64,000 bases of DNA from Brachycybe producta (Eukaryota; Arthropoda; Diplopoda; Playtdesmida; Andrognathidae): NCBI GenBank assembly GCA_036925085.1, contig JAUPFP010000001.1:10481754-10545753 (forward strand). Reading direction: 5' to 3'. The notes under the pieces are model-generated. The model was not told the DNA's origin, made no database searches, and saw only the letters and a program-made list of their open reading frames with translations. The translations under genes were made by a program, and so were the position numbers. This document shows, one piece after another, positions 30,442 to 53,764 of the stretch (positions within the stretch are counted from its first letter, which is position 1; every line of letters begins with the position of its first letter).

Positions 30442-32770
30442 ATGATGTCATCTAGGAGGGTTGCAGCCATAAATGCAAAAAATGGATGCCGAAAGGTAAT
30501 ATTAAAAAACTTTACACCTGCATACACACATTTATAGATGCTCATCACTTTACAATTTAAAATTTTTCAACTTTAGCGTGGTGCAATAACAATGTACATT
30601 CAGTAATCAAACTGATATTTCCAACTTGCAGTGGATTCATCAGAATGTAACCCCATAGTAAAATGATGATATATAAATATGTGTATCCATATGCATATTG
30701 TGTATATTACAGTTATGTGACATACTTTTTTTATAGATGCTGGTACTGCCATCAACCATGGGAGAATTGCTTGCTTCAGCATCCACATCTTTAGAAATGA
30801 ATGCATCTTATGTTGAGCTTGAAAATGGCCATGAAATTGATAGCATTGGAGTGATTAGAGATGGTGATGTACTTCGTTTTTATGATAGCAAGCCCAATAT
30901 AAATATGTATCCAACTAGTTCAGAAGAACATTCTATTGGCAATGTATTGAACCATTCTCGCATTCATCAAGCAAGCAATGAGCTCAGTCAGTTGTTTTCA
31001 CCATATAGAGTATCAGCTAGTTCAAACTCCTCAAGGAGAAAGTTTGGTCACAGTAATAAATCCTTAACATCTATGCACTCCATAAAAAATACTTCTAAAG
31101 TTTACACAAAACGATTAGTATGTGTGCACCCATTTGCAGAAAATGAAAAGGAACTGCACTTGAGTTCTGAAAACATAATTCTAGATGGTCAAATTTCTTT
31201 TTCATTAGACTACTCTGTAGATCAAATTAATGACTTAATAGTTAAATTAATACAACAAGTAGATAAAACTTTTTGTATTGGTGACTTCAGGTATGTGCGA
31301 TGTGACCGCAAAAAAATAACATTAGTTCATGTTACTGATGGTTATACATGGGATGCAGAAAAAGTGGTTGCCCTTGCAGGAAGAGGTGCTATATACATAC
31401 AAGCAACAAAAAAAATGAAAACTGTTGAAACAAGTCTTCCACAAGTTGAAAATGAAGGGGTGCAAGACAACTGTGTCATAGCTTTAAGCACTTCAGATGA
31501 TGAAAATGACTTTGATCTTAATATTGCCTTGCAAGAGAGTTTTAATATGCAACCAGATAACTGTAATGAACATGAAGAAAATGTCATTACACAAGAAAAT
31601 TTTGAAGAACCAGAGTATGTAGATCAGTTGCATGAAAACACTGACAATATAATTGAATGTTCAGGTATGTGTGATATGAGAGATATTCTAAAGTCACATT
31701 TATCAAAGATAAAAAAAATTAGTCATGTAGGAAGGTTGATTATTCGAAGAAAATTTGCTTTCAGTGATGCATGTGATTTATATCTAGATGATTCTCATCT
31801 TGCAACAAGTGAAATTAAAGTAACATTTTGTGGTGAGGAAGCTGTCGATGCAGGAGGCCCACGGCGCGAGTTTTTCACTATTATATTGCAAGAAATACAA
31901 AATTCACTTTTTTATGGGGATCTGGGAAAAAAAGTTCCTATACACAGCATATCACATCTTGCTGCAAGGCATTTTTTTGTTGCTGGTATTTTAATCGCAC
32001 AAAGCCTTTTATTGGATCAAATTTGGTTGTCATTCTTTTCACCAGTAATCTTAGATTATGCAGTTTCAGGGATCAATGACTTAAGTATATCACCAGACAA
32101 TATTCCTGATGATAATATTCGAAACATGGTTCAAGAACTTGAGGCATGTAATACAGATGATCAGTTGCAATCTGTTGCATTCAAATTGATTGATGAAATC
32201 TGTGCATGTGGATTCACAAAACCTTTAAACCAGTTGAAAATGACAGATAAAAGTGATTTAATTAACAGTTTAGGCTTGCAAAATTGTATAATTAACTGCA
32301 AAGCAGAAATTGATCAGTTGTTAGATGGAATGAGGGTTCTTGGCTTTTGTGACCTTTTAAAGACACATTGCTGTCTTGCAAACTTTTTTAAAAAAAGTGA
32401 TAATCCACTTAATCCAGATATTTTATTTCAATTATTTTCACCCACATGGTCTGAGGAAGGCAGTAACCAAAGAGAAATGGAAGAGCAAGCCTTGACATTT
32501 TTTTATCGATTTATTTGTAAGTGTTACCAAGGAGATGTCCACAATTTACAAATAGGTGATATTCTGCAATTTGTAACGGGATCAAAAATAATTCCAATTG
32601 GTGGATTTACATCAAATTTATTTATAAACTTTGACGTTAACCTAGAACTACCTGTTGCCTCAACATGTGCATTAACACTAACAATGCCTGTTAAGCATGC
32701 TTCTTTTGAAAAGTTCAAAGAAAGGATGGAACTGTCATTTGCTGGGCATGGTGGCTTTGGCACAATTTAG
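30442..32770 (+). CDS. KHA/ubiquitin-like plus HECT-type E3 ligase (two exons, 695 aa)
   Basis: Exon 1 (30442-30495, 18 codons from ATG) ends AAAG|GTAATA. Exon 2 begins at 30737 after TTTTTTTATAG and keeps the frame. The exon 1 plus early exon 2 region (residues ~1-75) reads like a KCTD9-type KHA beta-grasp domain (NGCRK...LPSTMGELLASAS...EIDSIGVIRDGDVL). The middle is acidic and unassigned. The C-terminal ~320 residues are HECT-like: EAVDAGGPRREFF at the N-lobe, ILQFVTGSKIIP, then the catalytic-cysteine motif LPVASTC (Cys 34 residues before the end) and a GFG C-terminus. It should form a thioester with ubiquitin. G2E3-like HECT proteins are similar. Repeats before and after the gene match those around the transposase gene at 19.6 kb, so it is probably transposon-borne. 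The ORF is intact. Confidence 0.82.
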
Positions 32771-37073: not shown

Positions 37074-39407
37074 TGTTAGGTGTTGAAAAAATAAGTAAAG
37101 CAACACCTAACAATAATTTGAAAGAGGGGCAGAAATTAGTAAAAGAGAAAATTAAAATAAAGTAAAAAGAGAAAGAGGCGGAGCTAGAAAGAGAAACGAT
37201 GAAAGAGAAGTAAAAAAGAGAAGAAAAAATGAGGAAATAAAAAATGGCGGGAAAGTAGTAGTAAAAGAGGGGGTGGATAAAGTATGAATGAATCACACCC
37301 ACACACACACACTCATAGTAAACAGAGGCAAAAAAGGGAGAGGCTGAAAAAAGTAAAAGAAACCCACCCACCCATAAGAGAATGACGAAGCAAGAAGAAA
37401 GTCAAAGAAAGGGGGGAAACAAAAAAGAAACCCACCCACACAAGTAAAAAGTAATAAAAAGTTTTTAAAGAAAACAAGAGAGGGGGGAAATAGAAAGACT
37501 AAACCCACCCACACACACTTTAGAAGGGTGAGCCCAAATAAGTGTACCATGTTAAATAAAAACTTTTTTACAAAATTAAATGTAATTAAAGAATGAAAAG
37601 AGTGGAAAACATACTATAAAGTGTAATAGATAGATAGATGAAGTGGTTAATTAACCTGATATAATCTGATTACCTAGTGGAGTGTAAAATAAGAGAAAAG
37701 TAAAGTTGAACAATGAAAAAGTTTAAATGTGACACTTAAAGAAGAAAAACATATGGTTTATACTTCATACTCACACGGTAGAAGACCACCTGTTTTACAA
37801 ATAATTATGACGTCATTATAGAAAAAAAATAAAAAGAAAGAAGGGATGGAAAAAGTGTAACAAGATACTTTTTACCATACACTCTCTTCAATATGCAAAA
37901 CAGCAAAGTAATAAAAAGTTTAAAAGAAAAAGTAAAGCACATAACAGGTTCTCAACACATTAAGAAAAGGGCCGTTAATAATATATAGAGTATATTGAAG
38001 ACTATAGAGAGGAAACTTATGAATGAGTATAATGAAATGAATGGAACAATATGTGAAGTCAAACATAACCCAAAAGAGGTACCGACAAGTAGCGAAAGAG
38101 TTGTATGATGTTAGGGTTCTCAACAGAGTAGGGGTAAAAGGGCCAAAATCGTATTTAAATAGAAATACATTTCGGAGGGCCTAGAAAACCAAATAAAGGA
38201 ACATTGGGAATGTTAGTCATTCAAATGAAATGTTATGAGTTGCCGAAAACTAAAACTTTCGATGAAAAGTTAAAAGGTTAACTATACTAATTCATAGAAA
38301 ATGACGGTTAGTGAAAATAACAGTATGTATCGACGATCGTAAAAAAAATTTATAAAAAATCCAAATTGTAATTTTACGACCGGATGCATATTAGGCAGAT
38401 GTTCGTAGAAGAAGATCAAAAGCCAGTTGACCGATTGGTTATTTTAATTTTAGAAAATTAATTCTAACCAATCAGAATACTTAAAATTCATTTCTGACTA
38501 AACAAGATGCGATGAACATCGTATTCTAGAGAGAGTCCTACATTGGAGTTCTAGAAGAGAGGACATATGTTATAGATTTAGTAAAAAGAAAGAAGAAAGA
38601 ACTTAGAAGAAATTTAGAGGATGAGACTTAGAAGAAATTTAAAGAATAGGACTTAGAATTATTTTGAATTGAGTTTGTGAAGTCATTTGGACTTAGAATT
38701 ATTTTGAATTGAGTTTGTGAAGTCATTTGGACTTAGAATTATTTTGAATTGAGTTTGTGAAGTCATTTGGATTTAGAATTATTTTGAATTGAGTTTGTGA
38801 AGTCATTTAGACTTAGAATTATTTTGAATTGAGTTTGTGAAGTCATTTGGACTTAGAATTATTTTGAATTGAGTTTGTGAAGTCATTTAGACTTAGAATT
38901 ATTTTGAATTGAGTTTGTGAAGTCATTTGGACTTAGAATTATTTTGAATTGAGTTTGTGAAGTCATTTAGACTTAGAATTATTTTGAATTGAGTTTGTGA
39001 AGTCATTTAGACTTAGAATTATTTTGAATTGAGTTTGTGAAGTCATTTGGACTTAGAATTATTTTGAATTGAGTTTGTGAAGTGTTTTGAGAAATAAACC
39101 TAGGAGTTGGTTTTTCATGTAATTTGGATTTTGAGTCTGAGACCAGGAAAGTGTTTTCACGAAGCTATAATTCTCCGAAGACAACAAGAAGCCATCTAAG
39201 GTAAGGTTAACAACTCTTGTTATCTTTATTAGGCCCAGTCCAAGAAAATTAAAAAATTACTACCACTCACTGATAAACTACAAAACCCATTCCCTACATA
39301 AGCCTTCATTGGCTGGGAGGGTCGAACCCTAAACCCAATAGGTACTATTTGGCTGAAAGGGGAATCACAGAACACCACTGTGATAGCCGTGAAAACGGAA
39401 ACTTACA
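37074..39407 (+). repeat. 5' LTR (2,334 bp) of env-bearing element
   Basis: Begins TGTTAGGTGTTG and ends AACTTACA. It contains 11 copies of a 40-bp repeat (38651-39090). Apart from repeat copy number I noticed only isolated substitutions from the 3' LTR, for example position 37198 (g) versus 54416 (a). The short frames inside are not genes. Confidence 0.95.
38651..39090 (+). repeat. 40-bp tandem array in 5' LTR (11 copies)
   Basis: Units begin ACTTAGAATTATTTTGAATT, contain GAGTTTGTGAAGTCATTT and end GG or AG. G/A variation at the ends of units gives each LTR a readable pattern. Confidence 0.95.
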
Positions 39408-39412
39408 AAAAG

Positions 39413-39430
39413 TGGCGCAGTCGACAGGAT
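39413..39430 (+). promoter_or_regulatory. Primer-binding site of env-bearing element
   Basis: TGGCGCAGTCGACAGGAT starts 5 bp after the LTR end. Its complement is a plausible tRNA 3' end (ATCCTGTCGACTGCGCCA) and resembles tRNA-Ser, which several insect errantiviruses are known to use. The same complement recurs, in part, in the 3' tail at 53.8-54.0 kb. Confidence 0.8.
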
Positions 39431-41184
39431 TAGTTAAAAAATCGGTTGGGTGGTTGAATTGTTTTATTAGAAAGTTTTGTGGCAAAGCAATTGGAACATT
39501 AGTTGGGGTTTTGGGATGGCAATTTGATTTTTAGAGTGTATTTTATTGAAGTGTATTGTCTTTTTCCTATTATTTGGTTGGGCTAAATTTGGATAAATAA
39601 AATTAGTTTAAGTTCAATTGGGTTGGATTGATTTTTTTTTTTTATTTGTTTGGTGTTTAAATAATTCATTAGTTGCTTTGGTTAACAGTTGGGTTATTTT
39701 AAAGAAGTTCAGTTGAGACAATTGAGTTGTTTTGAAGCTTATATGGTCAAAGTTAATTGAAGTTATTAGATTATGTTGATTGGGATCTAAAAAGTGAATA
39801 CATGAAAAAAATTTTTTTGGATTACAGAATAAATTGTGCATGCTTACCTTGTTTTAAAATTGATGAACAAAGAGGTTAAAGAAATGAGTATTGAGTGATA
39901 GACAGAGTTGGATTAATTTATGAAGTAAAACTGAGAATAATTTGCATGTTCTAGGGAGAATTGATTTTTAGAAAGCTGATTGAGATATTTTATGAATTTT
40001 AATTGTAATTTTTTTAGGGGTGAATTGGAATTGAGATTAACATGAGAAAATTAATTGAAGTTTGAGAAAAGTTAATTGATTTGCTTCATTAAGTGTGGAA
40101 TATCTTATTTGTTAATGTGTGAATTGGCTAATTCAGAAAAAAAAAAAAAAAAAAAAAAAAATTTTTTGGTTTGGATTAATTAGGGTTAATTGAGGAATTC
40201 AACTGATTACTTATTTTGGAATTAATTATATCAAATAACATTTGTGGCTAAAAGATACTAGAAGATCTTTCACAACTTAAATGGGATTATTTTCAAAATT
40301 TTGAAAATTATTTGTATCTTAATGAGTTTTGAATTTTTGTGTTTAGTATTTAATCTTTATTAAAATTGTAGAACCCTGCAAAATATTATTTTCTTGGGTT
40401 ACTATAGTAGAATTATTGTTTGCAACTAAAACCTTTTTATTTTATGTATCTAAGACTGTTTTGTTTCATTTTTACCAAAATTGTCGAGGTTTGTCTAGTA
40501 CAAGAATTGGACTGGACAAACATAGAAATAGCAATCGAAGAGATTGCTTATTTCTTTGTTGCTTTATGGGCAATTAAAGCATTCTGGGGTTAAATAAAAA
40601 TACTTACTGGTGAACAAAGAAATGAGCTGGAAATTGTTAGTGTATTGTTGCATAAAGTTAACTGACTTGTTCTGGTTTAGAGGATTTGATTGGGAGGAGG
40701 TAGATATTACTGCTAGAGACCTCATTTATCTTTGTGTTCATCTTATCATGGTTAAAATACTTTGGGGTTAGAAGATAATGAAATTTGCAAGTCAATTAAT
40801 GGTTTAATGAAAAAAAAAAAAAAAATTTCTGGAAGATTCTTAGGTTTACCCATATTGTTGTTGTGAGTGGATATGTTGAGTACATTATTATTGATTTTGA
40901 TCAAGATTTTTGGGGGTCCTAAAAGATATTAAGTGGCCTATTAAGTGCATGATTAAATTAAGTCATATTGCCTGAGTTGTTTTGTTTCAATTGTTTTGCA
41001 AATTGTTTTTGTATTGTACTTGTTTTTAAGATTTGCTCCCAACACACATACGCACGCTCCCATACAAAATTGCATACATAATTGCGCATAAAGTAATTAA
41101 TTGATTAATTAGGTAATCGATTAATGGGCCTTATTAGAGTGTTTGGGGGGATGAAAGAATCGTAATAATGCTCTTTTCCAGGTT
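39431..41184 (+). other. Long 5' leader of env-bearing element
   Basis: There is no convincing ORF in 1.75 kb. Two long A tracts lie at about 40136 and 40810. It ends in a good 3' splice site (CTCTTTTCCAG, 41180), suggesting that the accessory ORFs are reached by splicing. Confidence 0.6.
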
Positions 41185-41616
41185 ATGGCCGAAGCACCAG
41201 AAGACCGTGAACTGAACAATTTTAAACCAGTGTGCAGAGTTTCCCCTAGAATTATAACAGAAGAAGAGTACCGAGAGCGACGAGAAAGATTCATCGACGA
41301 GGCAGAATTAGCGTATCACTTACTCTTGGCTAACCTAAGACCGTTGGCGGGTTACCAGTCGGTACGATTTAGCTTGCCGTCTCCGGTGAGCCCAACACCG
41401 AGTTCAATACCAAGTCCAATACCAAGTCCGATACCAAGTCCGGTACATTTTTTGGAGAGTGGAGTGGCACAATTTTATCTTCACGGAACTCCAATCTTTA
41501 ACGTGAGATCGGATCTTGCTGGTTTCATCGCACCTCCTTCGTCTCCCGTGGAAAGAGAACCACCGGAGCCACAGGACGAACGATTGGCAGACGACGGATT
41601 GCCATATCACGTTTAA
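41185..41616 (+). CDS. Accessory ORF 1: Pro/Ser-rich protein (143 aa)
   Basis: ATG lies 5 bp after an apparent splice acceptor. The N-terminal half is charged (EEEYRERRERFIDEAE). The middle contains repeated PSPI units (residues ~72-90). The C-terminal part is acidic with PPSSPVEREPPEP. No family recognised and no CPx4C motif. It is the first gene of the accessory cluster, in the same orientation as gag. Confidence 0.65.
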   Translation: MAEAPEDRELNNFKPVCRVSPRIITEEEYRERRERFIDEAELAYHLLLANLRPLAGYQSVRFSLPSPVSPTPSSIPSPIPSPIPSPVHFLESGVAQFYLHGTPIFNVRSDLAGFIAPPSSPVEREPPEPQDERLADDGLPYHV

Positions 41617-41652
41617 AGGTGATTATATATGTAAGGTTAAGAAAATTTGTTT

Positions 41653-41892
41653 ATGGATGAGTGCATGTTGCAGGACATTTGCATATTACCCTGGTGCCCA
41701 TTAAGACCAGAGTGTAATATCATTGACTTGAGTGACATTGATGTTATTTTTGTATGTACTACACATTTGAGAACATTTGAGGGTGCCGAATATAATATTT
41801 GGATGAATGCTAAAGAATTAATTGTTTCCGTCCACGATTTATGGCAGATATTAGATGGATATTCCACTGATTTTGTAGGATTTGAAATATGA
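41653..41892 (+). CDS. Accessory ORF 2: small CPx4C/CxxH protein, type A (79 aa)
   Basis: Carries LPWCPLRPEC near the start and VCTTH ~15 residues later, i.e. CP-x4-C...C-x2-H, a likely single zinc site. An amphipathic leucine-rich tail follows (WLxxxxLL-type in its relatives). Closely related to the ORFs at 42968 and 43654. Its TGA stop overlaps the next ATG (ATGA, 41889-41892), suggesting coupled translation. No known family recognised. Confidence 0.75.
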   Translation: MDECMLQDICILPWCPLRPECNIIDLSDIDVIFVCTTHLRTFEGAEYNIWMNAKELIVSVHDLWQILDGYSTDFVGFEI

Positions 41893-42179
41893 GTTTTGTG
41901 GATGAATACGAGGTATCCTCAACCAATGATTTTGTATGCCCTTATAGTAATATTTGTTTCAGAGCTCCAGATTTCTCAGACAATTCATATATGTGGAAGT
42001 GTATGAGCCACAATTACCTGTTTGATATTAGAGATTACCCATTTGTTGCACTAGGAAGACCTGGATCAAACAATGTAGAAGCAAGTATAGAATATAGTGA
42101 ATTTTGTGAATATATTGGACAATTTATCATACATCCAAATCTGGTTGAAATCAAAAACTTTTTCAATAGCAGGAATTGA
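41889..42179 (+). CDS. Accessory ORF 3: CPx4C/CxxH protein, type B (96 aa)
   Basis: Motif CPYSNIC ... WKCMSH, followed by a DIRDYPFVALGR segment shared with the ORF at 43924 (KRNYPEIAFGR). Starts inside the stop of the preceding ORF. Putative zinc-binding microprotein; function unknown. Confidence 0.72.
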   Translation: MSFVDEYEVSSTNDFVCPYSNICFRAPDFSDNSYMWKCMSHNYLFDIRDYPFVALGRPGSNNVEASIEYSEFCEYIGQFIIHPNLVEIKNFFNSRN

Positions 42180-42194
42180 GAAGAAGTAAAGATT

Positions 42195-42400
42195 ATGTGT
42201 AGAAAAAAAAAAAATCTTTAGTAAGTATAACTTGTCCATTTAGTTTAAATTGTGTTTTTATTATAAAGAAAAGAGATAATTTGGTGAAGTGTGTTTGTCA
42301 TCTTAATCATTTTCAAACTGAATACATTCAAAGTAATCGTGACTTGAAAGATAAGTTGGAAATTTTATCAGTAAAAAAGCATGAACTTAGAAGACACTAG
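42195..42400 (+). pseudogene. Accessory ORF 4: CPx4C/CxxH fragment broken at an A12 run
   Basis: The frame with TCPFSLNC ... KCVCH (about 42203-42400) has no ATG. The only suitable ATG (42195) is separated from it by a frame change at a run of 12 A (42203-42214). Either the gene is broken, or polymerase or ribosome slippage on the A run expresses it. It overlaps the next ORF by 20 bases. Confidence 0.6.
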
Positions 42401-42590
42401 TAGGAACATACCACAGTGCCCAATAGGTCCTTATTGCATTGTAAGATTTTTTCGAGAAAGTGGTCGAGTTAAGTGTTTTGTACATGATACCTGGTATCAG
42501 ACAGAAAAAATCCCAGAGAAAATTATAATTAAAGAGACAAGTAATTTGAAGTTGAAGGTAATAAAGGAAGAGGAAAAGAAAGAAAGTTAA
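42381..42590 (+). CDS. Accessory ORF 5: CPx4C/CxxH protein (69 aa)
   Basis: QCPIGPYC ... VKCFVH followed by a Lys/Glu-rich tail. Very similar to the first motif of the next ORF (QCPIGPDC ... IECLTH), so it may be a truncated duplicate of that gene. Confidence 0.72.
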   Translation: MNLEDTSRNIPQCPIGPYCIVRFFRESGRVKCFVHDTWYQTEKIPEKIIIKETSNLKLKVIKEEEKKES

Positions 42591-42600
42591 GATATTTAGT

Positions 42601-42960
42601 ATGAGTGAGGATTATCAAACGAATAGGTTACAGTGCCCCATAGGACCAGATTGTATTACTAAGTTTCATCGATCTATAGGACGGATTGAATGCCTCACCC
42701 ATAAATTCTGGTATTTACCTGCAGATTACGTATACAGGTGTGCTAATCAAGGTTATTTCCCGATACAAGCTGTTGTTGATTGTACTGATCAAGACACTGA
42801 GGAAGACATTCGAAGAATAATTATAAGTAGATGGGAATCGTGTCCTTATGCTAGGAATTGTGCCTTTGTAGCCATCACACAAAACGAAGCTCCAAGGGAA
42901 TTCCAGTGCATTATACACGGAACAGTAATTAATACTCTTTTTAACGTAATCCATATGTAA
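42601..42960 (+). CDS. Accessory ORF 6: double CPx4C/CxxH protein, type C (119 aa)
   Basis: Two motifs: QCPIGPDC ... IECLTH near residues 11-34 and SCPYARNC ... FQCIIH near residues 80-106, joined by a ~45-residue linker. Same layout as the ORF at 43252. Putative two-zinc protein, unknown function; starts 10 bp after the previous stop. Confidence 0.75.
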   Translation: MSEDYQTNRLQCPIGPDCITKFHRSIGRIECLTHKFWYLPADYVYRCANQGYFPIQAVVDCTDQDTEEDIRRIIISRWESCPYARNCAFVAITQNEAPREFQCIIHGTVINTLFNVIHM

Positions 42961-42967
42961 AGAGGGT

Positions 42968-43192
42968 ATGGACTTAAATGTATTACCATGGTGTCCTATA
43001 AGACTTAATTGTGTAATAATTGATAGAAGAAACATAGATAACACATATGCTTGCCTTACACACCAAAGAATTTTTCAGATAGAAGAATACGAAAATTGGC
43101 TTCAAGTTAGAACATTATTGACAACACTAGGTGAACTATTGCAAGATATATATAGCTTTTTCATAAGAATAGAAGAAGAAGAAAGTGTATAA
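42968..43192 (+). CDS. Accessory ORF 7: CPx4C/CxxH protein, type A (74 aa)
   Basis: LPWCPIRLNC ... YACLTHQR, then FQIEEYENWLQVRTLL and an acidic end. Clear paralogue of the ORFs at 41653 and 43654. Confidence 0.75.
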   Translation: MDLNVLPWCPIRLNCVIIDRRNIDNTYACLTHQRIFQIEEYENWLQVRTLLTTLGELLQDIYSFFIRIEEEESV

Positions 43193-43251
43193 AGAATTCC
43201 AGTTATAGACAGAAAATATTATGGTTTATTAATGAGTGATATTTAAAGGGT

Positions 43252-43611
43252 ATGGATTTAAGCATACAAAGGAAAAGGGAACGAGATGCCAATAGATGTC
43301 CTTTTGGGAAAAGTTGTAGTATAGTACACGAAGATTTTCAAGAATTTGTAACATGCGAAGTCCACAACGTAAATTTTGCATTTCCTGAGTATCTATACAT
43401 GTGTGGTATAAATCCTAATGTAAACAGAGTAATTTTTGAGACTAAGTGTAAAAGTCCCTTAGAAGAACTTCAGTTATTAACAGATAGAATTGGTAATCAT
43501 TGTCCATTGCATGACGAATGCTTTTTTGTCTTAATTTCACCAAAAACTTGGCCTAAACAGTATCAATGTGCAGTTCATCAAAAGATATTTAATGAACATT
43601 TGGGAGTATAA
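43252..43611 (+). CDS. Accessory ORF 8: double CPx4C/CxxH protein, type C (119 aa)
   Basis: RCPFGKSC ... VTCEVH and HCPLHDEC ... YQCAVH. Exactly the same length and motif layout as the ORF at 42601 but strongly diverged in between, so the duplication is old and the cysteine/histidine pattern has been maintained. Confidence 0.75.
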   Translation: MDLSIQRKRERDANRCPFGKSCSIVHEDFQEFVTCEVHNVNFAFPEYLYMCGINPNVNRVIFETKCKSPLEELQLLTDRIGNHCPLHDECFFVLISPKTWPKQYQCAVHQKIFNEHLGV

Positions 43612-43653
43612 AAGATAAAGGAAAAAAGCGTGTTTGTTTGAATTCTTAATAAA

Positions 43654-43890
43654 ATGAGTGTTGATTTAGAATTATTACCATGGTGTCCCTTAAGGTTTAG
43701 TTGTGATATTATTGATTTAACAGAAATAGAGAACATTTATGTGTGTCTCACACATCATAGAGCTTTTCAAGTAGAAGAATATGAACTTTGGCTTCGTGTT
43801 AAACAGTTGTTAACCTCATTAAATGAATTATTGCATGAATTAGATGAATATTCCATAGAGTCAGAAATAGATATTGACCGATTTAGATAA
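43654..43890 (+). CDS. Accessory ORF 9: CPx4C/CxxH protein, type A (78 aa)
   Basis: LPWCPLRFSC ... YVCLTHHR, FQVEEYELWLRVKQLL, then a Leu/Glu-rich helix-like tail. Third type A paralogue. Confidence 0.75.
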   Translation: MSVDLELLPWCPLRFSCDIIDLTEIENIYVCLTHHRAFQVEEYELWLRVKQLLTSLNELLHELDEYSIESEIDIDRFR

Positions 43891-43923
43891 AGAAGTTTTA
43901 TTGTCAGAAAATAATTTAGAATA

Positions 43924-44223
43924 ATGAGCGAGAATTTTAGTGATCAAGATAAGGTTTATAGGTGTCCTGAACTAAAAAATTGTTTCTAAACACAGTGTCA
44001 CCATCATAGACAAGATTATAGGTGGAAGTGTGTTACACATTATAGGCATTTTGATAAAAGAAATTACCCAGAGATAGCATTTGGGAGAGTTGCATGTTCA
44101 TATGAAAAAGCAGTTAGAGAATTGATAGATTTTAATGAGTATTTGTCCCGCTTAGGTCACCCCGCAAAAACACAGGAAAGAATAGATTTTTTCGTACAAA
44201 GAGACTTAGAAGGGGAAGATTAA
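43924..44223 (+). pseudogene. Accessory ORF 10: type B CPx4C/CxxH gene with internal stop
   Basis: Begins with ATG and RCPELKNC; an in-frame TAA follows at 43987-43989. Beyond it the same frame stays open to 44223 with WKCVTH and KRNYPEIAFGR, homologous to the ORF at 41889. Probably a recent inactivating mutation. Confidence 0.7.
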
Positions 44224-44254
44224 AGATTAAAATTAAAAGTTGTTTGGAAATTAG

Positions 44255-45466
44255 ATGGAAGAAGACAAAATGGCTTCCAATGATGGAGAAGTCGGTAACT
44301 CCAATGGTGGTGCAGAAGGTAACGCAAATACGAATCTTAACATGCATCACACAGGGTTAATACCATATTTTTCTGGGGATGAAAAAGGACCATCCGCCAA
44401 AGAGTTTTTTGAGCAAATAGAAGGTGTAGCTAATTTAGCAAGATGGACAGAAGAGTTCCAGATCATTCTGATAAAATCCAAGTGCAGAGGTCCTGCTGCG
44501 GAATTTTTCAGAGATCATCCAAGCATTAGACAGATAAACTCAATTGAAGAGTTAAAAGCGTTGATGATACAAAGATTCGAGCCAATCGAACCTAAGTTGG
44601 TATCAATGCAGAAGTTTTTAGAAGAAAAACAGAGCAACACGGAAAGCGCTATTGAGTATATTTCCAGAGTAAAGACCAGAGGAAGAGCCTTCACCGAGGA
44701 AAATCCCAGTGCCGACCAGATAGCAGTCAGAGATGGGATGATACAAAATCAAATCATCAAAGGATTGCATCCAAGAATAAAAAGATTTGTACTTTCACGG
44801 AATCCTGCTGATTTGAACGAAACAATCAGAATCATTCTAGCGGAAGAAGAAAATGAGAAGTTGGTTCATGCGAAATATGGAATAAATGTGCTAGAGACGA
44901 TTACTGAAGAAAAGGAGATGCTGAAGAAATTTGAAGAGAAATTAAAGCAATTGGATGCTCAGAGAACAAAAGACATTGCAGTATTGGACCAGAAGTTTCA
45001 AGAAAAAATAAAGGCTCAAGAGAATGCCAAGAAAGAGGAAGGAAGTAATCAAAGGATGGATAAACGAAATGTTGAATGTTTCAGATGTCACAAGAGAGGA
45101 CATTATGCTAATGAGTGTTGGTCAAAACCAACAATTCCACAGCAATGGAGAAATCCGAGTTACCCACAACCAAATTGGAATCAGCCACAAGCTTTTCAGC
45201 CTAATGGTAGAGCTCCTAATTTTGGAAATACACAGAGAAATGTGCAGATTGAAAGGCAGAGAGGCCAAGGATGTTATAATTGTGGGAAGATGGGTCATTA
45301 TGCAAAGGATTGTAGAATGAAACAAGTCCAAAGACAAAGTGAACCCATAGTATGTTTTAAATGTGGAAAGCAAGGTCATTTTGCAAATGTTTGTAGATTA
45401 GGAGCAAGACAGAACCCAGGGAATCAGGTTCGAAGAAATCAAGCAAATGGTAGGACGGAAAACTAG
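44255..45466 (+). CDS. gag: Gag of env-bearing element (403 aa)
   Basis: Capsid-type region at residues ~35-215 (FLEEKQSNTESAIEYISRVK, IIKGLHPRIKRFVL), a coiled-coil Glu/Lys stretch, then three CCHC zinc knuckles near residues 275, 340 and 368 (CFRCHKRGHYANEC, CYNCGKMGHYAKDC, CFKCGKQGHFANVC). Three knuckles is more than the usual one or two of Ty3/gypsy Gag. Pol is in the -1 frame, open from 45454, so the 13-bp Gag/pol overlap must contain the shift site. The overlap ends GGAAAACTAG, which is not a perfect slippery heptamer. Confidence 0.9.
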   Translation: MEEDKMASNDGEVGNSNGGAEGNANTNLNMHHTGLIPYFSGDEKGPSAKEFFEQIEGVANLARWTEEFQIILIKSKCRGPAAEFFRDHPSIRQINSIEELKALMIQRFEPIEPKLVSMQKFLEEKQSNTESAIEYISRVKTRGRAFTEENPSADQIAVRDGMIQNQIIKGLHPRIKRFVLSRNPADLNETIRIILAEEENEKLVHAKYGINVLETITEEKEMLKKFEEKLKQLDAQRTKDIAVLDQKFQEKIKAQENAKKEEGSNQRMDKRNVECFRCHKRGHYANECWSKPTIPQQWRNPSYPQPNWNQPQAFQPNGRAPNFGNTQRNVQIERQRGQGCYNCGKMGHYAKDCRMKQVQRQSEPIVCFKCGKQGHFANVCRLGARQNPGNQVRRNQANGRTEN

Positions 45467-48400
45467 AAACTCCTTCAAAGAATAGAACGCGTCAATGGGG
45501 GAGAATGTATGAAAACCGCGTCACATTAAACATTCTGAATGACACAACATGTCCTATCTTTTTAGCTCAGTCGAAAAACAATCTGATAAAGATTCTATAT
45601 GACACAGGAGCAGGAATATCGATAATTTCCAAATCCTTATTTGAAAAGATAAAAGGACGGAAATCACGAGATATAAAGCCTATCACTGATCAAGCTAAGG
45701 TTATAATTACCACAGCGAATGGTACACCGTTTCGTACAAAGGGATTATATGAAATACCCGTACGTATTACAGCAGAGAAAGTGGAAAAGGTTCCTTTATA
45801 CGTGAGTGCAGAAGATTTGCCAAAGAAATATCAGATGATTTTCGGCATAGATGTGATAAAGCAGTTAGGATTAACATATGAACCCTTGCTTGATGTAATT
45901 GGTTATAATGGGATGAAAATTAAGACAAGAAGTTTAGAGAAAAATGAAATGATTAATATGTTGCAGAAAAAGGGAGATAAAGAATGGATATTAGAAGTAG
46001 TAAGTAAAACGGAGACAGAGAATCAGAATCAATTAAGAAAATTTTTGGAGAAAAATGATGATATATTTGCATGTTCACTTAAAGAACTGAAACCGACACC
46101 TGTTGTTGAACAAGAAATCCACATGGTGGATCAAGTTCCAGTTTTTATACGACCATACAAGTTGCCACAGAAATCAGAAGTAGTTATGAAAGAGAAAATT
46201 GATGAGTTATTAGATGCAGGAATAATTAGACCATCGTTAAGTCCTTACTCAGCACCGTGCATGCTTATAGGAAAACCAGATGGGAGTCAAAGATTAGTTG
46301 TTGATTATCGAGCATTGAATTTAAAGGTTGTTAGTGATAAATATCCATTACCAGAGCTTTTAGGAGTAAGTAATCAATTAGGAGAAGCTGTTTATTTTTC
46401 TACTTTAGACATGGCAAGTGGTTTTTACCAGATTCCCATAACAGAAGAAGATAAAGCAAAAACAGGTTTTAGTACACCTTTTGGACACTATGAATTCAAC
46501 AGATGTCCAATGGGACTAAAAACATCTCCAAGTGTATATCAGAGACTTATGGATAATGTATTAGGTGATTTGAAAGGGAAAATTTGTTTTGTTTACATGG
46601 ATGATATTATTGTATACAGTAAAACTATAGAGGAACATTATGAAAGGTTAAATTTAGTGTTTGAGCGACTTAGAAATGCAAACTTAAAAGCAAAACCAAC
46701 AAAATGTTTGTTCCTACAGAAGGAAATAAACTATCTAGGACATACATTTACACAAGGGAAATTCCAACCAGGTGGAAAGAAAGTAGAAGCAGTAGAAAAT
46801 TTTCCGAGACCAACAAGTGTCAAGAAAATACAAAGTTTTGTGGGATTAGTAAACTTTTATAGAAAATTTATTCCAAATTGTGCAAGTTTAGCAGGTCCAT
46901 TAACAAAGTTGTTAAGTAAAGATACTCCATTTCTTTGGACAAAAGACTGTGAAGAATCTTTTCAGAAGTTAAAAGGATGTTTGATTACATATCCAGTTTT
47001 GATAATGCCAAATTTTGAAAGACCATTCTATTTGACTACTGATGCAAGTAATGAAGCAATCGGGGCAATCCTCGAACAAAAGATTGACGGTCAATTACAC
47101 CCAATATCTTATGCGAGTAGGAAGCTCACCAAATCAGAACAAAATTATTCTACGACATGGAAAGAGGCATTAGCATGTGTTTATGGTGTAAATTATTTTC
47201 GATATTACTTGATGGGAAGAAAGTTTACTCTTATCACAGATCATCAACCGTTAAAATACTTGATGACTATGAAAAAAGATAAAGCTATGTTAACTAGATG
47301 GGCATTACAGTTACAACAATATGATTTTGAGGTTTTATATAGAAAAGGTAAAGAGAATACTAATGCAGATGCTTTGAGTCGAAATCCTGTAGAAAGCAAA
47401 GAATTAAATGTGTTAAATGAACAAGAAACTTGGGAAGAACATGAGGTTGCTAAAGATCAAGAAAATTGCGAAGAATTGAAATCTTTCATGGAATGTTTAT
47501 ATGGTTGTCCAGTAGATAAAAAGGTAAAAGAAAAAGTTGATAAGTTGGGTTTAGAATTAAATACAAAAGGTTGGTTAGTAAAAAGATCCGAAAATAAATT
47601 AAGAACTGTAGTCCCTTTGAGTAAAAGAAATTATGTGTTGAAAATGTGTCATGATAATATTACAGCAGGTCATTTTGGTATTGAAAAAACAACAAGCAAA
47701 GTTGCAGACAGATTTTATTGGGAAACTTTAAAGAAAGATGTGAAACAATATTGTGAAGCTTGTGTATAGTGTAATCAGAAAAAGATTCCACATGGGAAAA
47801 GTCCATTATGTAAGTTCCCAGCACCATCCAAACCATTTGAAAGAATTGGAATGGATATACTAGGTCCTTTACCTACTACACAGAATGGAAATAAATACAT
47901 TGTAGTTATTTGTGATTATCTAACAAGATACCCAGAAGCATTTGCTATTCCAGATCAGAAAGCTGAAACCATTGCAAATTTGTTAGTAAGAGAAATTATT
48001 TCACGGTATGGTAGTCCCCAGACTCTAATAACAGACAGAGGTGCAAACTTTATGTCTGAACTTATGAAAAGTCTGTGTGAGACATTCGGAATTAAAAAGA
48101 TTTTTACGTCAGCATATCACCCGCAAACAGATGGTTTAGTTGAGAGATTCAACAGGACACTAACAACAATGTTATCACATTATGTTGATAGTTCACAAAG
48201 AAATTGGGATGAGGAACTTCCATTAGTATTGATGGCATATCGTAGTGCGATGCATTCAAGCACTAAGGAGACACCTTATTTTTTATTGTTTGGACAGGAT
48301 ATGAATTTACCATTTGATTTAATAGGAGATGAACCTCAGCCAGTGTACAACACTGAAGACTATGGAAAGGTAGTGGCAAATAGGATGCAGAAGATACATG

Positions 48401-49317
48401 ATATAGCAAAAGAGAGTTTAGAAAAATCAGCAGAAAATCAAATTAGATATCAAGGAAAGAAAAGAAAAAATAAAGGAATACAAGTAGGTGAAAAAGTATA
48501 TTTGAATGTACCACAAGTAGCACAAGGTAAAACGAAAAAATTAGCGAAGTTGAACAAAGGTCCTTATCGAGTCATTAGACAAACGTCACCTGTTAATTTT
48601 GAGATAAAGCACATGTATAGACACAAAGATGTACAAATAGTTCATGAAGAGAGATTAAGAGTAGTAAAAGGAAAAAATCCATGGGAAAAGATTGAGGACT
48701 GTACAGAAAAGGTGAAAGAACCTAAAGAACAAAGCAGAAAAGGCAAAAGGCCTAGTGAATCGAGTAATTCAAGTTCAGATGAAGATGATGAAGACAATGC
48801 AGATAAAATTGATTATTGTTGTGAAAAGGTACCTACAGTAAATACTAAGACACCTAAGGGAATTATTCGGAACACAGAAGCCGTACCCAGTACTAGTGGT
48901 TATAATTTACGAAGTAAAGGTTCCATACAGTTTGCTACGCCATTACCAGTAAGAACAAGAAGAATTACACCTAGGACAGAAGTATTACCTAGACTACCAG
49001 ATCCACCTAGAGTTGAACCAGGCGAATCTGAAGATGAAGGAGATTTGAGTTTAGCAAGGTTACGTAAAAAGTTGCAAGAGATATTGAATAAAGGAAATTC
49101 TAGGGATACCCAAGAGGAAGATAGACATCCTCCAAGTATTTCGGAATCCCAAGAAATTAGTGCATCAGAAGAAGAAATTCAGAGTGAACAGGATTCTATA
49201 GTTGAAGAAGATACTAGAAAAACTGGTCAAGAAGAGCCAGAAGATAATGTAGCAGGACAATTGTTAGACAAGATGTTTAAATTAGTAAGTGTGATAGAAA
49301 GAATGAGTAAGAAATAA
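45454..49317 (+). CDS. pol: Pol of env-bearing element, with one in-frame TAG
   Basis: Numbered from the ATG at 45505. Aspartic protease with DTGAG at 33-37; reverse transcriptase with YMDD at 364-367; RNase H starting TTDASNEAIGAIL near 512; integrase zinc finger (H, H, then C-x-x-C) near 723-756; integrase core with D784, D844 and E880 (D-59-D-35-E); then a long acidic, serine-rich tail to 49317. A TAG at 47767-47769 (codon 755) falls inside the last CxxC of the integrase zinc finger and divides the ORF; both sides remain in one frame and otherwise intact. All catalytic residues are present. Domain order (integrase last) places it with Ty3/gypsy (Metaviridae). Confidence 0.93.
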
Positions 49318-49549
49318 TTCGGTTAAGGTAGTCATTGAAAGGAAAATGATGAAAAAGTTATGATAAATAATAGAGATTTTGAGAAAAAATGTTTGAGTTT
49401 AGATTAGCGGACAAAGTATTGATATTGTTAATGAATTGTTAGACAACATGACATTGAGTTAGCTTATCTATATTTAACGACTAATGAGTAAAAATGAATG
49501 GTTTATTGAATTAATGAAGATAAAAAGATGACAGAGAAATAAGAATAAT

Positions 49550-49792
49550 TAAAGCATTAATGTTAGACGACGGACTGTCTGGAATAATGAAAGAAGAAAA
49601 TTAGGAATTATTAAAGCATTAATGTTGGACAATGGACTGTCCGGAATTAAGAGAAATAGAAATAAGAGTGATTAAAGCATTAGTGTTGGACGACGGACTG
49701 TCCGGAAATAAGTAAAAGAAAATAAGAATAATTAAAACATTAATGTTGGACGACGGACTGTCCGGAATTATGAAAAGGAAAATTAAGAATGA
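49550..49792 (+). repeat. Four ~60-bp repeats between pol and env
   Basis: Units near 49551, 49611, 49671 and 49731 contain ATTAAAGCATTAATGTTGGAC followed by GGACTGTCCGG. The GGAC..GTCC arms could give each RNA unit a small hairpin. Upstream of the env splice acceptor; role unknown. Confidence 0.8.
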
Positions 49793-50197
49793 TTGAAACA
49801 GTAATGATAAAAAAATAGTGAGTGTTGAGAAAATAAGTATATTTTGAAAAGAGAGTATAGAAATAAAATTGAATCAAAGAAGTTCTCATTAAAGATCTAA
49901 GCTAGGAAAATAATTGTTGTAAAGCAACAAAGGCTAGTAAAGATTGACAGATTATGCTAAAGAAGAATTTAATAGAAATAGTAGAAGCTTAGGGGGCAGG
50001 AGACCCACTACTAATGAATATAGGAAGAAGAGATTAATGAAATTGAAATATTGTTTGTAGGAATTGAGATTTTGTTTTAAAGAGTTTGAAATTGTTGTTT
50101 AAAGATGTTGAGGAAATTGATTAACTATTTGTTATAAGTGTATAATGATTTGGTTTTAGGAGATGAGAAGTTTGTTTATTTCAGATAAAAGGAAGAA

Positions 50198-52891
50198 ATG
50201 GCGTTCGATAAGATGATTGGAATTTTGCTGTTGTGGACGATAGCAGTCACGGGACAGGAATATTACGACATCGAAATTTGTAATTGGAAGAAAGGTGAAA
50301 AGGTTTGCAAAGAAGCGGTTATAAACAGTCCGGAACCGTATTCGGATAAAATGTGCCCGCAAAATGGTTGCAGAGAATGTATGGTTAAATGGGTTACAAA
50401 ATTAATAAGTAAAGAGGGAAAAAGCGAATCAGCTGTAGAATTTCAAGTTAAGCAAACAGAAGAAACAAATGGTAACAGTGAAATGTATAAGTGCCAAAAT
50501 AGAGGAATGCCATGTAGTTGTGCTAAAAATGATACTTGTTCAGGAACAGAACAATATTGCAAAAGCACAAGAAAATGCGCAAGTAAGAAGACAGAATGTC
50601 ATTGCGAAATAGTTCGAGCAAATACAAGATTAATACATGTGAACAAAAAGGGTATTGAATCAGAAGGATTTGAAATAATATCTTATAGAGAATGTTACTT
50701 CAACACATCTGAGTTAAAATATGGAAGGAAAAGAAAACGTATTGGGCGAAATTTATTGGGAATGGATACGTTCAAAATTGAGGAAGGGGTAAACTTCATC
50801 AAATTTAATGATCCCGTCATAACAGTAAGTGCAGAAGGCACAGTTATAATTAGAAAAGACGGAGTAGAAAGAAGTTTACATGTGGGAAAAAAGAAACAGG
50901 TTATTATAAATCCTGAATTTGGTATGGAATCTGGTACCCTTCATATCATCTTCATTTCCACAGAAGGTCATATGATGGAAGGAAAGTTCCATATTGAAGG
51001 TAAAGATATATGTCACAGATTAAAATGTGTTTTATGTTATGAGTTTGTCTATAATATTCAATGTATGCCAACATATCTAACATATGCTATAATCATATTA
51101 TTGATGTTAATGACTAGTATTGTTGTTTTATATATCAAAGCAGTGTTGAAATCATTATGGAATTTATTATCTTGGTTTATTATGTGTTCATTGTTTATAT
51201 ATCGTATTGGTAAAAAGTGTTTAAAGGTATCTATGGTTATTGGTGTCGCTAGTGGTCGATCCGTAAAAAATAAAGTCAAAAAGGTTAAAGATAAGTATGA
51301 TGATTTGGAAACAGGTACTTTATCAAGAAATAGTATCCTGAGTCCAACAGTCATTACTATAATAATTTTGATAGGATTTTTATTAAGTTTGGTTTCAAGT
51401 GCACAAGCGAAATGCACAGAACATAAAATGATAAAATCACAAATTACTGAATGTCAAGAAACGAATCAGGGACAAAAATGTTCCCTAGCCACATCAATAC
51501 AGGTAACTTTAACCAATTTAGAGTATACTGCATGTTTATGGCTAACTGATCATCAAGAAAACTATGTTGCAAGTGTTGAAATAAGATTTGAAAGTGTAAA
51601 TTGTGAATGGCGAACGGAAAGATTATACTATACATTTCCAACCGAGCTATTCACTTTAAATCAAATTGCATGTCCTCAAAATAAGTATTGTGGATGGGGA
51701 GATCATTGTCACCCAGATTACAAATTTGAATTGTTAACTAAAGAAGCTTTAGATTGGCCAGGAGTAACAGATTGTTTTCCAGGTGATTCTGGAACTTCAT
51801 GTTTTATTGCCAGTAGACAACCATGTCATCATTTCCGATGGTATTTGAAACCTGATTATAAAAATGTATTTGAAGTAAGAAAAATTTCTAGTATGAAGTG
51901 TCACCCTAAAATAATATTGACTATTAAGAATAATGATACTGAGACAAAATATGCAATCCGGTCGGCAAAAGAAGTGCCCGATCAAATATATGTTGAAGTA
52001 GTTGGAGTTTTTGATCAAGCAACTGATATTATTTCCAAGCATTTGATAATCAAACATGGGAATGGGTCAGAAGCTTATTTAGATACAGCTGCAGAATTCT
52101 CAAGACCCTATAGAGGCCAAATTGGGGATGTACAAGCTGGTGAAGCCATATCAAAGGATTTTTTATTTGATAAAAGAATGGTAGAATGTAGTTTCTTTGA
52201 GTCACGAATGACTTGTACGAAACAACAATCATATCTAGAATTAATGATGCAAAGTAAAAGGAATCTAATACCTATGGCATTAACGAATCATAAAGTGTTT
52301 GTTGACAAAGAAGGCCGATTGAAATCTTCTTTAATTGTATCTAGCCCAGCAGTAGTACATTTAATAGTAGAAAACTATCAGGTCATATTAAGTACAGTTC
52401 GAGTGTGTCCCCGTATATTAAGAATAGTAGCTCATCAGGGGTGTTATTCTTGCTCAATATTAGCAGTAGTGCAAATTGAAGCAATTAGCACATGTTTTCC
52501 AGGAACAGTAACAATTACCTTTGAAGACATACCTATGAGTACCAGAGCTCTCACTCTCACTACTAGTGCCAAAATATATGATATACAGATACAGATTAGT
52601 AAAAAATGTATTTCCGATAAAGTGTGTTTACAATCGCGAGTTGGAGTGTCGTGCGAGAAATTTGAAGGATGCTTCGAAGAACCACAGTTGAATCTTCAAA
52701 GAACTTTCGATGCTCGTGTTACATCTGTTGGAGGATATTCTCCAGGCGACGAATTTACGTTCTCATCAATCTTTCCAAACTTTTTGGGAAGCTTGGGATC
52801 TATGTTCTACGCTCCGTTCATGATCGGACTAAGTATATTAGGATCATGTTTTGTGTTTTCATGTGTGCTCAGCATGATGCGAATGAGATAA
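50198..52891 (+). CDS. env: Envelope-like Gn/Gc glycoprotein, phlebovirus-like (897 aa)
   Basis: The ATG is preceded by acceptor-like tracts (TTTGGTTTTAG at 50160, TTTATTTCAG at 50184), fitting a spliced env mRNA. Residues 1-20 are a signal peptide. A cysteine-rich ectodomain with an RKRKR basic patch (~177-181) follows, then a membrane segment at ~294-315 and a second at ~319-335. Next come a cytosolic loop and a hydrophobic segment (383-404, ending SSAQA) that looks like an internal signal peptide before a second cysteine-rich ectodomain. The latter has the cysteine spacing of phlebovirus Gc, a class II fusion protein, around residues 492-550 (CGWGDHC, PGVTDC, CHHFRW). A C-terminal membrane anchor lies at ~866-893. 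The two-subunit layout differs from gypsy-type env. The ORF is intact. Confidence 0.78.
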   Translation: MAFDKMIGILLLWTIAVTGQEYYDIEICNWKKGEKVCKEAVINSPEPYSDKMCPQNGCRECMVKWVTKLISKEGKSESAVEFQVKQTEETNGNSEMYKCQNRGMPCSCAKNDTCSGTEQYCKSTRKCASKKTECHCEIVRANTRLIHVNKKGIESEGFEIISYRECYFNTSELKYGRKRKRIGRNLLGMDTFKIEEGVNFIKFNDPVITVSAEGTVIIRKDGVERSLHVGKKKQVIINPEFGMESGTLHIIFISTEGHMMEGKFHIEGKDICHRLKCVLCYEFVYNIQCMPTYLTYAIIILLMLMTSIVVLYIKAVLKSLWNLLSWFIMCSLFIYRIGKKCLKVSMVIGVASGRSVKNKVKKVKDKYDDLETGTLSRNSILSPTVITIIILIGFLLSLVSSAQAKCTEHKMIKSQITECQETNQGQKCSLATSIQVTLTNLEYTACLWLTDHQENYVASVEIRFESVNCEWRTERLYYTFPTELFTLNQIACPQNKYCGWGDHCHPDYKFELLTKEALDWPGVTDCFPGDSGTSCFIASRQPCHHFRWYLKPDYKNVFEVRKISSMKCHPKIILTIKNNDTETKYAIRSAKEVPDQIYVEVVGVFDQATDIISKHLIIKHGNGSEAYLDTAAEFSRPYRGQIGDVQAGEAISKDFLFDKRMVECSFFESRMTCTKQQSYLELMMQSKRNLIPMALTNHKVFVDKEGRLKSSLIVSSPAVVHLIVENYQVILSTVRVCPRILRIVAHQGCYSCSILAVVQIEAISTCFPGTVTITFEDIPMSTRALTLTTSAKIYDIQIQISKKCISDKVCLQSRVGVSCEKFEGCFEEPQLNLQRTFDARVTSVGGYSPGDEFTFSSIFPNFLGSLGSMFYAPFMIGLSILGSCFVFSCVLSMMRMR

Positions 52892-53444
52892 CTGTACTCA
52901 TCTTTCACTATGAAACAACAGTGAAAGGGAGAAGACTATTTTCTCAATATTGCATCTATAATATACATCGAGAAGAATTATCTACAACAACGATACTGTA
53001 GAAGTTGTGACATTTTACCAGGTGATAAAATCTGTGAAAATGTACCAAAAAAGACTTCTAAAACAGTTTAAAGAAAGACATCAAAGAAAAGATCAGCCCA
53101 TGACATCACACAAAAAGATGAACATGGATGATTTCTAAACATCATAAAGGTTGGAAAGAAGGAAAAAATTCAAGACATCAGAGATGAAAAGAATCAAGAC
53201 ATCAATGAAGAGAGAATTCAAGACTTCTGAGAATAATTAAGAGAAGACAGCAGATGGACAGCGTGGAAGACCACATGAATCCATATGATTAAAGGCATCA
53301 CGAAGATATGAAGATGACCAAGTGTGATGGCACGAAAGACTGAATTTCTGAACTTATTTGTGAGTAGAGACTTAATGGAAATAGTGTGTTTTTAGATGTG
53401 AAATTTAAGGTGTTATTAGGTTAGATTTGATGGTTAGGATGTAA

Positions 53445-53680
53445 CATTTTTGAGAGTGAAGAGTGAAGGGAAAACATAGAATAATTTGAAAATAGAATTG
53501 GTACAGTAGAAAAATGAAGAAATTAATGTCCAATGAAGAGTGAAGGGAAAACATAGAATAATTTGAAAATAGAATTGGTACAGTAGAAAAATGAAGAAAT
53601 TAATGTCCAATGAAGAGTGAAGAGAAAACAGAATAATTTGAAAATAGAATTGGTACAGTAAAGAAACAAAGATGAAATTG
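53445..53680 (+). repeat. Three ~77-bp tandem repeats after env
   Basis: Units start GAAGAGTGAAGGGAAAACAT near 53457, 53534 and 53611; the third has a small deletion. Each contains AGAATTGGTACAGTA. Confidence 0.85.
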
Positions 53681-53764
53681 ATGTCGAAGGAAACAAGAAA
53701 ATATGTGAACTTTATATATAGAACATAGAATGATGTTGCTTATAAACTAGTATTATATTAGTAG

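Follow-up and report, generated by a model that had tools for sequence, protein, structure and literature searches.

A conserved and duplicated island of CPx4C..Cx2H microprotein genes before gag in a Ty3/gypsy lineage of the millipede Brachycybe producta

Small accessory genes in front of gag are known from long terminal repeat (LTR) retrotransposons of the MDG1 group of Drosophila (412, mdg1, Stalker2), which carry two small open reading frames (ORFs), sORF1 and sORF2, in that position (PMC11952523; this and the other publications cited here are drawn on in part). These ORFs measure about 70-110 amino acids (aa), low nonsynonymous/synonymous rates have been cited for them, and sORF1, subnuclear in 412, is predicted to hold a helix-turn-helix and sORF2 a transmembrane segment (PMC11952523). 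A second comparison is offered by Cer1 of C. elegans, an LTR element with an extra nuclear protein, CERV, which is spliced from exons shared with gag plus a further exon and whose Cys loop, which, it has been suggested, might form a C4 zinc finger, is required for RNA export (PMC10309623). Here we describe an accessory-gene island in the same pre-gag slot of a Ty3/gypsy element from the millipede Brachycybe producta, found in a stretch of 64,000 nucleotides (contig JAUPFP010000001.1, positions 10,481,754 to 10,545,753, forward strand) which, at its full length, is called the window below. A preliminary description of this DNA had stated that no LTR element with such an amplified accessory cluster upstream of gag was known. 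For small genes in this slot, MDG1 sORF1/sORF2 are a precedent (PMC11952523), whereas the amplified cluster itself was borne out, and no report of such a microprotein cluster in LTR elements was found in the open-licence PMC literature.

The region is a conserved, duplicated and constrained accessory-gene island of a Ty3/gypsy lineage that is endogenous-retrovirus-like, env being known from the window copy alone. It encodes a new family of microproteins of 50-120 aa, which falls into four types, three of them with a single finger (A, B, and D) and one with a double finger (C). The microproteins are probably zinc-binding, and the most likely role of the island would be counter-defence. Contrary to the MDG1 group, where two ORFs have been described, the window element has up to nine, in addition to an env gene, and its Cys/His proteins have no transmembrane segment and show neither the N-myristoylation start nor the transmembrane helix of sORF2/FAST-like proteins. 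They would also differ from CERV: in the DNA, the window ORFs are separate and have their own start codons upstream of gag, and the part of the Cer1 source drawn on describes no tandem small ORFs before gag (PMC10309623).

The preliminary description had counted nine same-strand ORFs with eleven copies of a CP-x4-C...C-x2-H motif, with about 13-18 residues separating the two ligand pairs. When all six frames of the 64 kb were scanned with the pattern CP-x4-C-x11-20-C-x2-H, 11 copies were returned, all on the + strand and all within 41695-44040, and none elsewhere; 2000 sequences simulated by a first-order Markov model from the base-pair statistics of the region had a mean of 0.001 motifs and a maximum of 1. 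The number of motifs and their common strand thus stood, whereas the spacing between the ligand pairs has to be corrected to 12-15 residues and two of the nine ORFs, D1 and B2, are interrupted in the window copy, leaving 7/9 intact. From the ORF that heads it to gag, the island reads as follows, in window positions:

41185-41616, + strand: ORF1, 143 aa, Ser/Pro-rich, acidic, without the motif; heads the cluster
41653-41892, + strand: A1, CPx4C..Cx2H microprotein, 79 aa
41889-42179, + strand: B1, 96 aa; its start overlaps the A1 stop (ATGA)
42195-42402, + strand: D1, single-motif ORF, interrupted in the window copy; motif at 42233-42301
42381-42590, + strand: D2, single-motif microprotein, 69 aa, resembling the first finger of C
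42601-42960, + strand: C1, double-motif protein, 119 aa
42968-43192, + strand: A2, 74 aa
43252-43611, + strand: C2, double-motif protein, 119 aa
43654-43890, + strand: A3, 78 aa
43924-44223, + strand: B2, interrupted in the window copy
44255-45466, + strand: gag, 403 aa, with CCHC zinc knuckles

In the window copy, D1 is closed by a stop after 8 codons, its motif being in a different frame past an A-run, and the motif of B2 is cut by an in-frame stop at codon 22. The family would have multiplied by tandem duplication and become packed almost gapless before gag: the spacing of successive ORFs goes from -74 to +59 nt, B starts within the stop of A in two families (4-nt ATGA overlap in the window family and in the family called L070 below), and gag is the eleventh ORF counted from ORF1. 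About ten ORFs in series before gag represent a translation problem in its own right. Short, densely packed ORFs with overlapping stops and starts could also be regulatory upstream ORFs that throttle the translation of gag, their peptides being irrelevant; however, the Cys and His are invariant in four families and omega lies below 1, as described below, which makes this explanation disfavoured and very improbable.

Protein searches of the same genome (295 Mb, 442 contigs) with A3 and C1 returned more loci, many of them at 30-50% identity. In keeping with an arthropod host, this genome has 33 Chitin_bind_4 matches, against none in 14 control genomes. In three divergent families, L069, L070, and L071, these gene types recur immediately upstream of gag, in an order that is much alike. 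Their stretches start inside ORFs, and the gene orders cover the stretch examined only, the first genes lying outside it:

L069 stretch: B, fused A-B, D, C1, the non-motif ORF Y, C2, gag
L070 stretch: A, B, D, short C1, Bcl-2-like ORF, A', Y, C2, gag
L071 stretch: end of a B-like ORF, A, D, C1, another ORF, C2, gag

Pairwise profile comparison unites A, B, C, and the single forms in one superfamily, in line with the earlier proposal that all are copies of one motif family: the D set matches the first finger of C (expectation value, E, of 6e-12), the second finger of C matches A (E 7e-5) and B (E 5e-5), and A matches B (E 0.0045). In L069, A and B are fused into a single ORF, which adds to the evidence for both being read as protein. 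In 22 aligned proteins of the four families, the only invariant residues are M1, C, P, C, C, and H, the first ligand pair being one residue closer in C2 of L070. Such a pattern, limited to the Cys/His ligands, the proline of CP, and the initial Met, fits a zinc site.

To see the cluster across the genome, gag loci were defined from the best 150 of 662 gag matches, merged within 1.5 kb into 126 loci, and a cluster was scored where a match lay within 5 kb upstream of gag, or a GTSF1-like ORF (see below) where one lay within 1.5 kb upstream. Among these 126 listed loci, at least 41 have the cluster, at least 26 a GTSF1-like ORF, none both, and 59 neither; conversely, among the matches listed, gag lies downstream at 41/56 cluster loci and at 26/39 GTSF1-like loci. 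All these gag, cluster, and GTSF1-like counts are lower bounds from repeat-rich lists. Together with its recurrence before gag in L069-L071, this upholds the view of an amplified accessory cluster borne by a retroelement. Even though the two broken ORFs of the window copy might suggest the decaying debris of a once-captured host gene, this idea is already refuted by families L069-L071 and can practically be dismissed: the cluster stands at at least 41 of the 126 loci, is open in most copies and constrained across families, and no host homologue was found, though the collection searched may hold few animal proteins.

Constraint was measured by pairwise codon likelihood. The hypothesis of omega (the ratio of nonsynonymous, dN, to synonymous, dS, divergence) = 1 was rejected, at 2 delta lnL (twice the log-likelihood difference) > 3.84, for 36/36 accessory pairs (21/21 A, 6/6 B, 3/3 C1, and 6/6 C2) and for 6/6 gag pairs; all these pairs share sequences and are not independent, and the omega medians of 0.03-0.06 are not to be taken literally, many distances being saturated. 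With the NG86 method, dN within accessory types is 0.38-0.92 and dS 0.8-2.9 or saturated, and dN of gag is 0.13-0.33, the accessory value being roughly two- to fivefold the gag value for the same family pair. Such constrained but fast evolution is as expected of proteins facing host factors. Of the selection on a zinc-binding fold advanced in the preliminary description, purifying selection is supported by the rejection of omega = 1 throughout, and the invariant Cys/His fit a predicted zinc site; constraint within the window family is weaker than that of gag and ORF1. Neither of the outcomes named there as fatal to the idea, a lack of homologues together with neutral dN/dS or a single host capture, was found, since homologous families exist and omega = 1 was rejected in all 36 pairs.

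Within the window family, 16 full copies of 41185-44250 were compared, the window copy included. A1, D2, C1, C2, and A3 are open in 16/16 copies, gag in 15/16, B1, A2, ORF1 (by a strict test), and B2 in 13/16, and D1 in 11/16. The pooled ratio of nonsynonymous to synonymous polymorphism (pN/pS) of the accessory ORFs without D1 is 0.63 (53 nonsynonymous and 27 synonymous changes, p 0.036, each variable site counted once) and becomes 0.54 (p 0.06) once the two most diverged copies are removed; for gag and ORF1 it is 0.31 and 0.24, respectively. Separately, six A3-like stretches with 77-81% DNA identity are spread across 1.7 Mb of one contig (C1:8041604-9742532, where C1 designates the contig); none of the listed gag matches lies close downstream of them, and they would be relics or the product of a separate spread of the region.

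What these proteins might do can be put forward as a chain of steps. RNA would be made from the 5' LTR and perhaps be spliced from a donor in the LTR to an acceptor before ORF1; the cluster ORFs would be translated serially, by termination-reinitiation or leaky scanning; and the microproteins may use the finger and a C-terminal helix to bind one another or proteins of the host. In this way they would blunt host defence, most probably the Piwi-interacting RNA (piRNA) silencing aimed at gypsy elements. This reading, a conserved accessory island whose serially translated finger proteins blunt host defence, most probably piRNA silencing, is given a probability of roughly 0.45. The predicted structure of A3 (AlphaFold2, predicted local distance difference test, pLDDT, of 79.7) consists of a beta-hairpin, a third strand, and a 38-residue helix, with the hairpin between the ligand pairs; the model of C1 is weaker (pLDDT 63.6). 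The A and B proteins are acidic, with an isoelectric point (pI) of 4.1-5.1 in 10/10 cases (the fused L069 A-B counted once), and for this reason protein partners fit them better than RNA. The C types have mixed pI. No Met-Gly start, as required for N-myristoylation, is present in any of the microproteins tabulated, nor is there a hydrophobic stretch of transmembrane strength, the highest 19-residue hydropathy mean being 1.18.

The same slot points to small-RNA silencing in sister elements. GTSF1/Asterix proteins are characterized by CHHC fingers and a Piwi-binding aromatic tail. In the sister families L074 and L075, a single ORF, of 153 aa and 138 aa, respectively, lies directly before gag. 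The sole PDB match of the L074 ORF at E 10 or better is mouse GTSF1 (PDB 6x46; phmmer E 1.3e-5), the similarity falling into two stretches, which take in the finger and an EDWDK-like tail; this ORF has one clear finger, with x10 spacing, and in the L075 ORF the second ligand is a Cys. GTSF1 is a Piwi-binding protein in the service of silencing, its loss affecting LTR elements most, and it also binds tRNA (PMC9539491), and gypsy elements are piRNA targets in insects (PMC13172572). Like GTSF1, the microproteins are small and have a CPx4-type finger, in a slot where sister elements hold GTSF1-like ORFs; however, the CHHC finger, shared by GTSF1, U11-48K, and tRNA methyltransferases, reads CPx4Hx9Hx3C (PMC9539491) and the cluster motif CPx4Cx12-15Cx2H, with no profile similarity found between them. 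No report of a retroelement-borne GTSF1 was found in the open-licence PMC literature. In a wider proposal, which we hold tentatively and with the odds somewhat against it, the leader-gag slot of the gypsy lineage would be an exchangeable anti-silencing island, occupied either by a captured, decoy-like GTSF1/Asterix or by home-grown amplified zinc microproteins (with Bcl-2 in one case), all of them dedicated piRNA antagonists. Such antagonists would be comparable to the viral suppressors of RNA silencing. If it is true that animal retroelements carry anti-piRNA genes, this cluster is a place to test it: a protein family without known relatives has been kept and multiplied in one slot over deep divergence, the very slot in which a relative of a core protein of the Piwi pathway is present in sister elements, and the small size of the microproteins should make them convenient to work with.

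Two further observations concern this slot. The Y ORFs before C2 (L069:1637-2071 and L070:2060-2341) share the word ERDWDLQ, which is reminiscent of the GTSF1 tail. A descent of the microproteins from a GTSF1-like ORF, for which the Cys ligand of L075 and the DWD word of the Y ORFs gave the cue, was considered, and profile comparison did not support it.

Several points weigh against an anti-silencing role. Since GTSF1 serves silencing, the GTSF1-like ORF would need to be a decoy. The resemblance of this ORF to GTSF1 falls to E 0.0071 with a two-sequence L074+L075 profile, and the Pfam CHHC model is not reported for the GTSF1-like ORFs at E 1. Profile comparison finds no homology of the GTSF1-like ORFs to the microproteins, for which the shared slot is the only link, or to the Y ORFs. 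Among the matches listed, neither gene set appears at the 59 loci mentioned above, and two of these loci, L072 and L073, have no cluster upstream of gag, even though the L073 gag is 78% identical to that of the window. As for selection, the purifying selection on the accessory ORFs is weak within the window family, below that on gag and ORF1; A2, A3, B2, and C1 singly have pN/pS of 0.84-1.28 on 9 to 18 changes each, A2 and A3 being above 1. Across families, YN00 gives dN/dS of 0.66/1.49, 0.45/0.52, and 0.77/0.76 in 3/42 pairs, two of them with dN near dS. Finally, the D proteins are basic (pI 8.5-9.8 in 4/4), which fits nucleic-acid binding as well.

This last point leads to the main rival, in which the microproteins regulate the element's own RNA, through nuclear export, splicing control, or transactivation, like CERV in Cer1, Rev, and Tat, with acidic A/B as co-factors and basic D as RNA binders. 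The cluster sits behind the sole donor-like site, in the LTR, and before gag; the structured repeat that occurs four times between pol and env (described below) could be an RNA target; CERV needs its Cys loop for RNA export (PMC10309623); and sORF1 of the MDG1 group, in the same slot, is subnuclear (PMC11952523). However, an evolution faster than that of gag and acidic A/B would be unexpected for RNA binders, and up to nine paralogues exceed the needs of an export factor, so that we rate this alternative as rather unlikely.

A role as particle or assembly factors, such as nucleocapsid-like helpers or partners of env, might be read from the position of the cluster, which adjoins gag in every cluster family examined, and from the CCHC knuckles of gag, by which the element is seen to employ small zinc domains. 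The ligand pattern and spacing are nonetheless unlike those of the CCHC knuckle, and the cluster-less L072 gag family retains long open gag frames, of 364-384 aa at several loci; we give little credit to this possibility.

The L070 cluster contains a Bcl-2-like ORF (L070:1340-1810), between C1 and A', which is assigned to the Bcl-2 family by its sequence match to the Bcl-2 domain: E 1.9e-5 against PF00452 over profile positions 3-100 of 100, below the gathering score (25.6 vs 31.4 bits), and a best E of 0.0023 against Bcl-2/Bcl-xL in PDB. Judged from coordinates, such an ORF lies inside clusters at eight loci among the matches listed. Counter-defence might therefore be directed against another arm, apoptosis or RNA sensing, and not against piRNA silencing, but none of the clusters of the window, L069, and L071 showed a Bcl-2-like ORF, and the GTSF1-like ORF that sister elements have in this slot suggests small-RNA silencing; we consider this variant improbable. 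When the L070 ORF was used as query for the whole genome, the best 150 of 161 matches came from many contigs, with open frames of 169 aa and many scores identical or nearly so, at about 53% to the query. The Bcl-2-like gene is apparently multi-copy and perhaps mobile. A related case is that of the planarian Burro elements, which are very large, gypsy-like, and equipped with captured domains, including BCL2-like and BIR, interpreted as possibly meddling with host systems; however, most of these domains lie in one giant polyprotein, and no CPx4C..Cx2H cluster is described in the part of that source drawn on (PMC6431247).

Protein, profile, and structure searches, the last two put forward as a check in the preliminary description, found relatives of the microproteins in element families of the same genome, and no convincing match in Pfam, PHROGs, or PDB or by fold. 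Pfam and PHROGs gave microprotein matches only at E 0.015 or more, PDB by sequence only at E 0.1 or more (the D proteins being outside that search), and the two AlphaFold2 models (A3 and C1) had no convincing fold match. Against 5.8 billion proteins, nothing was found for the microproteins at E 1, which is weak evidence of absence in a collection probably poor in animal proteins, as deduced from the fact that the GTSF1-like pair found nothing there at E 10, GTSF1 itself included. Scans of IMG/VR with gag, A proteins, and env found no relative. Two known fingers were considered and rejected for the microproteins: the gag-type CCHC knuckle (CX2CX4HX4C), ruled out by the CPx4Cx12-15Cx2H pattern and the lack of a zinc-knuckle match, and the CHHC finger, ruled out by its ligand pattern, with hhalign E of 0.05-0.08 and the finger not aligned.

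The island belongs to a complete Ty3/gypsy LTR element of 19.6 kb, which occupies 37074-56664 on the + strand of the 64-kb window. Its remaining features are:

37074-39406, + strand: 5' LTR, with TGTTAGG...ACA ends and a 40-bp tandem array inside; the primer-binding-like site TGGCGCAGTCG and then a leader come next
39198-39205, + strand: donor-like site in the LTR, candidate splice donor; sole match to [AC]AGGT[AG]AG within 37074-54300
45505-47769, + strand: pol, first part; protease, reverse transcriptase (RT), RNase H, and integrase zinc domain
47851-49317, + strand: pol, second part; integrase core and C-terminal domain
50198-52891, + strand: env, 897 aa, Phlebovirus G2 fusion glycoprotein-like, E 1.5e-29
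54292-56664, + strand: 3' LTR, one mismatch and one gap against the 5' LTR

The BLAST span of the 5' LTR is 37074-39409, its border at 39406 being deduced from the ACA end and the target duplication AATGT, and the end of the 3' LTR was placed in the same way. An alignment of the two LTRs spans 2376 columns and contains a single mismatch and a single gap, the latter equal to one 40-nt repeat unit. The tandem array, at 38649-39083 (about 11 copies) and 55867-56341 (about 12 copies), is the main difference between them. AATGT is present on both flanks of the element as a target-site duplication, and the near-identity of the LTRs, their same termini, and this duplication indicate a young insertion. 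Short target-site duplications, of 4-6 bp, are typical of Ty3/gypsy elements (Metaviridae), to which the window element is assigned by its LTRs, its gag, its pol order of protease-RT-RNase H-integrase, and this duplication. In the window copy, pol is split over two ORFs. The ATG of ORF1 follows directly after the candidate acceptor CTCTTTTCCAG, which failed a strict acceptor scan. Whereas errantiviruses of the Drosophila type have an env of baculovirus origin (PMC12440569), that of the window element matches Phlebovirus G2. A comparable envelope, related to the phlebovirus-type Gn-Gc glycoproteins, is found in Atlas virus, a retrovirus-like element of hookworm; being a nematode element, it differs in its host, and the part of the source drawn on describes no such cluster (PMC9094657).

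Four direct repeats of about 60 nt, each with a GGAC...GTCC-type hairpin-like core, lie between pol and env at 49536-49806. Their RNA fold has a z of -3.9, an Rfam search of the element gave no match, and they represent a possible RNA export or packaging element.

Elsewhere in the window, 12812-15834 holds a further gag ORF of Ty3 type and, behind it, a 525-aa ORF that has no Pfam match at 0.01, and the 484-aa ORF at 19577-21031 contains an rva_4 integrase core (E 8e-83). A 677-aa ORF at 30737-32770 begins with a KHA match and ends with a HECT match, a pairing in one ORF that is, to our knowledge, unusual.

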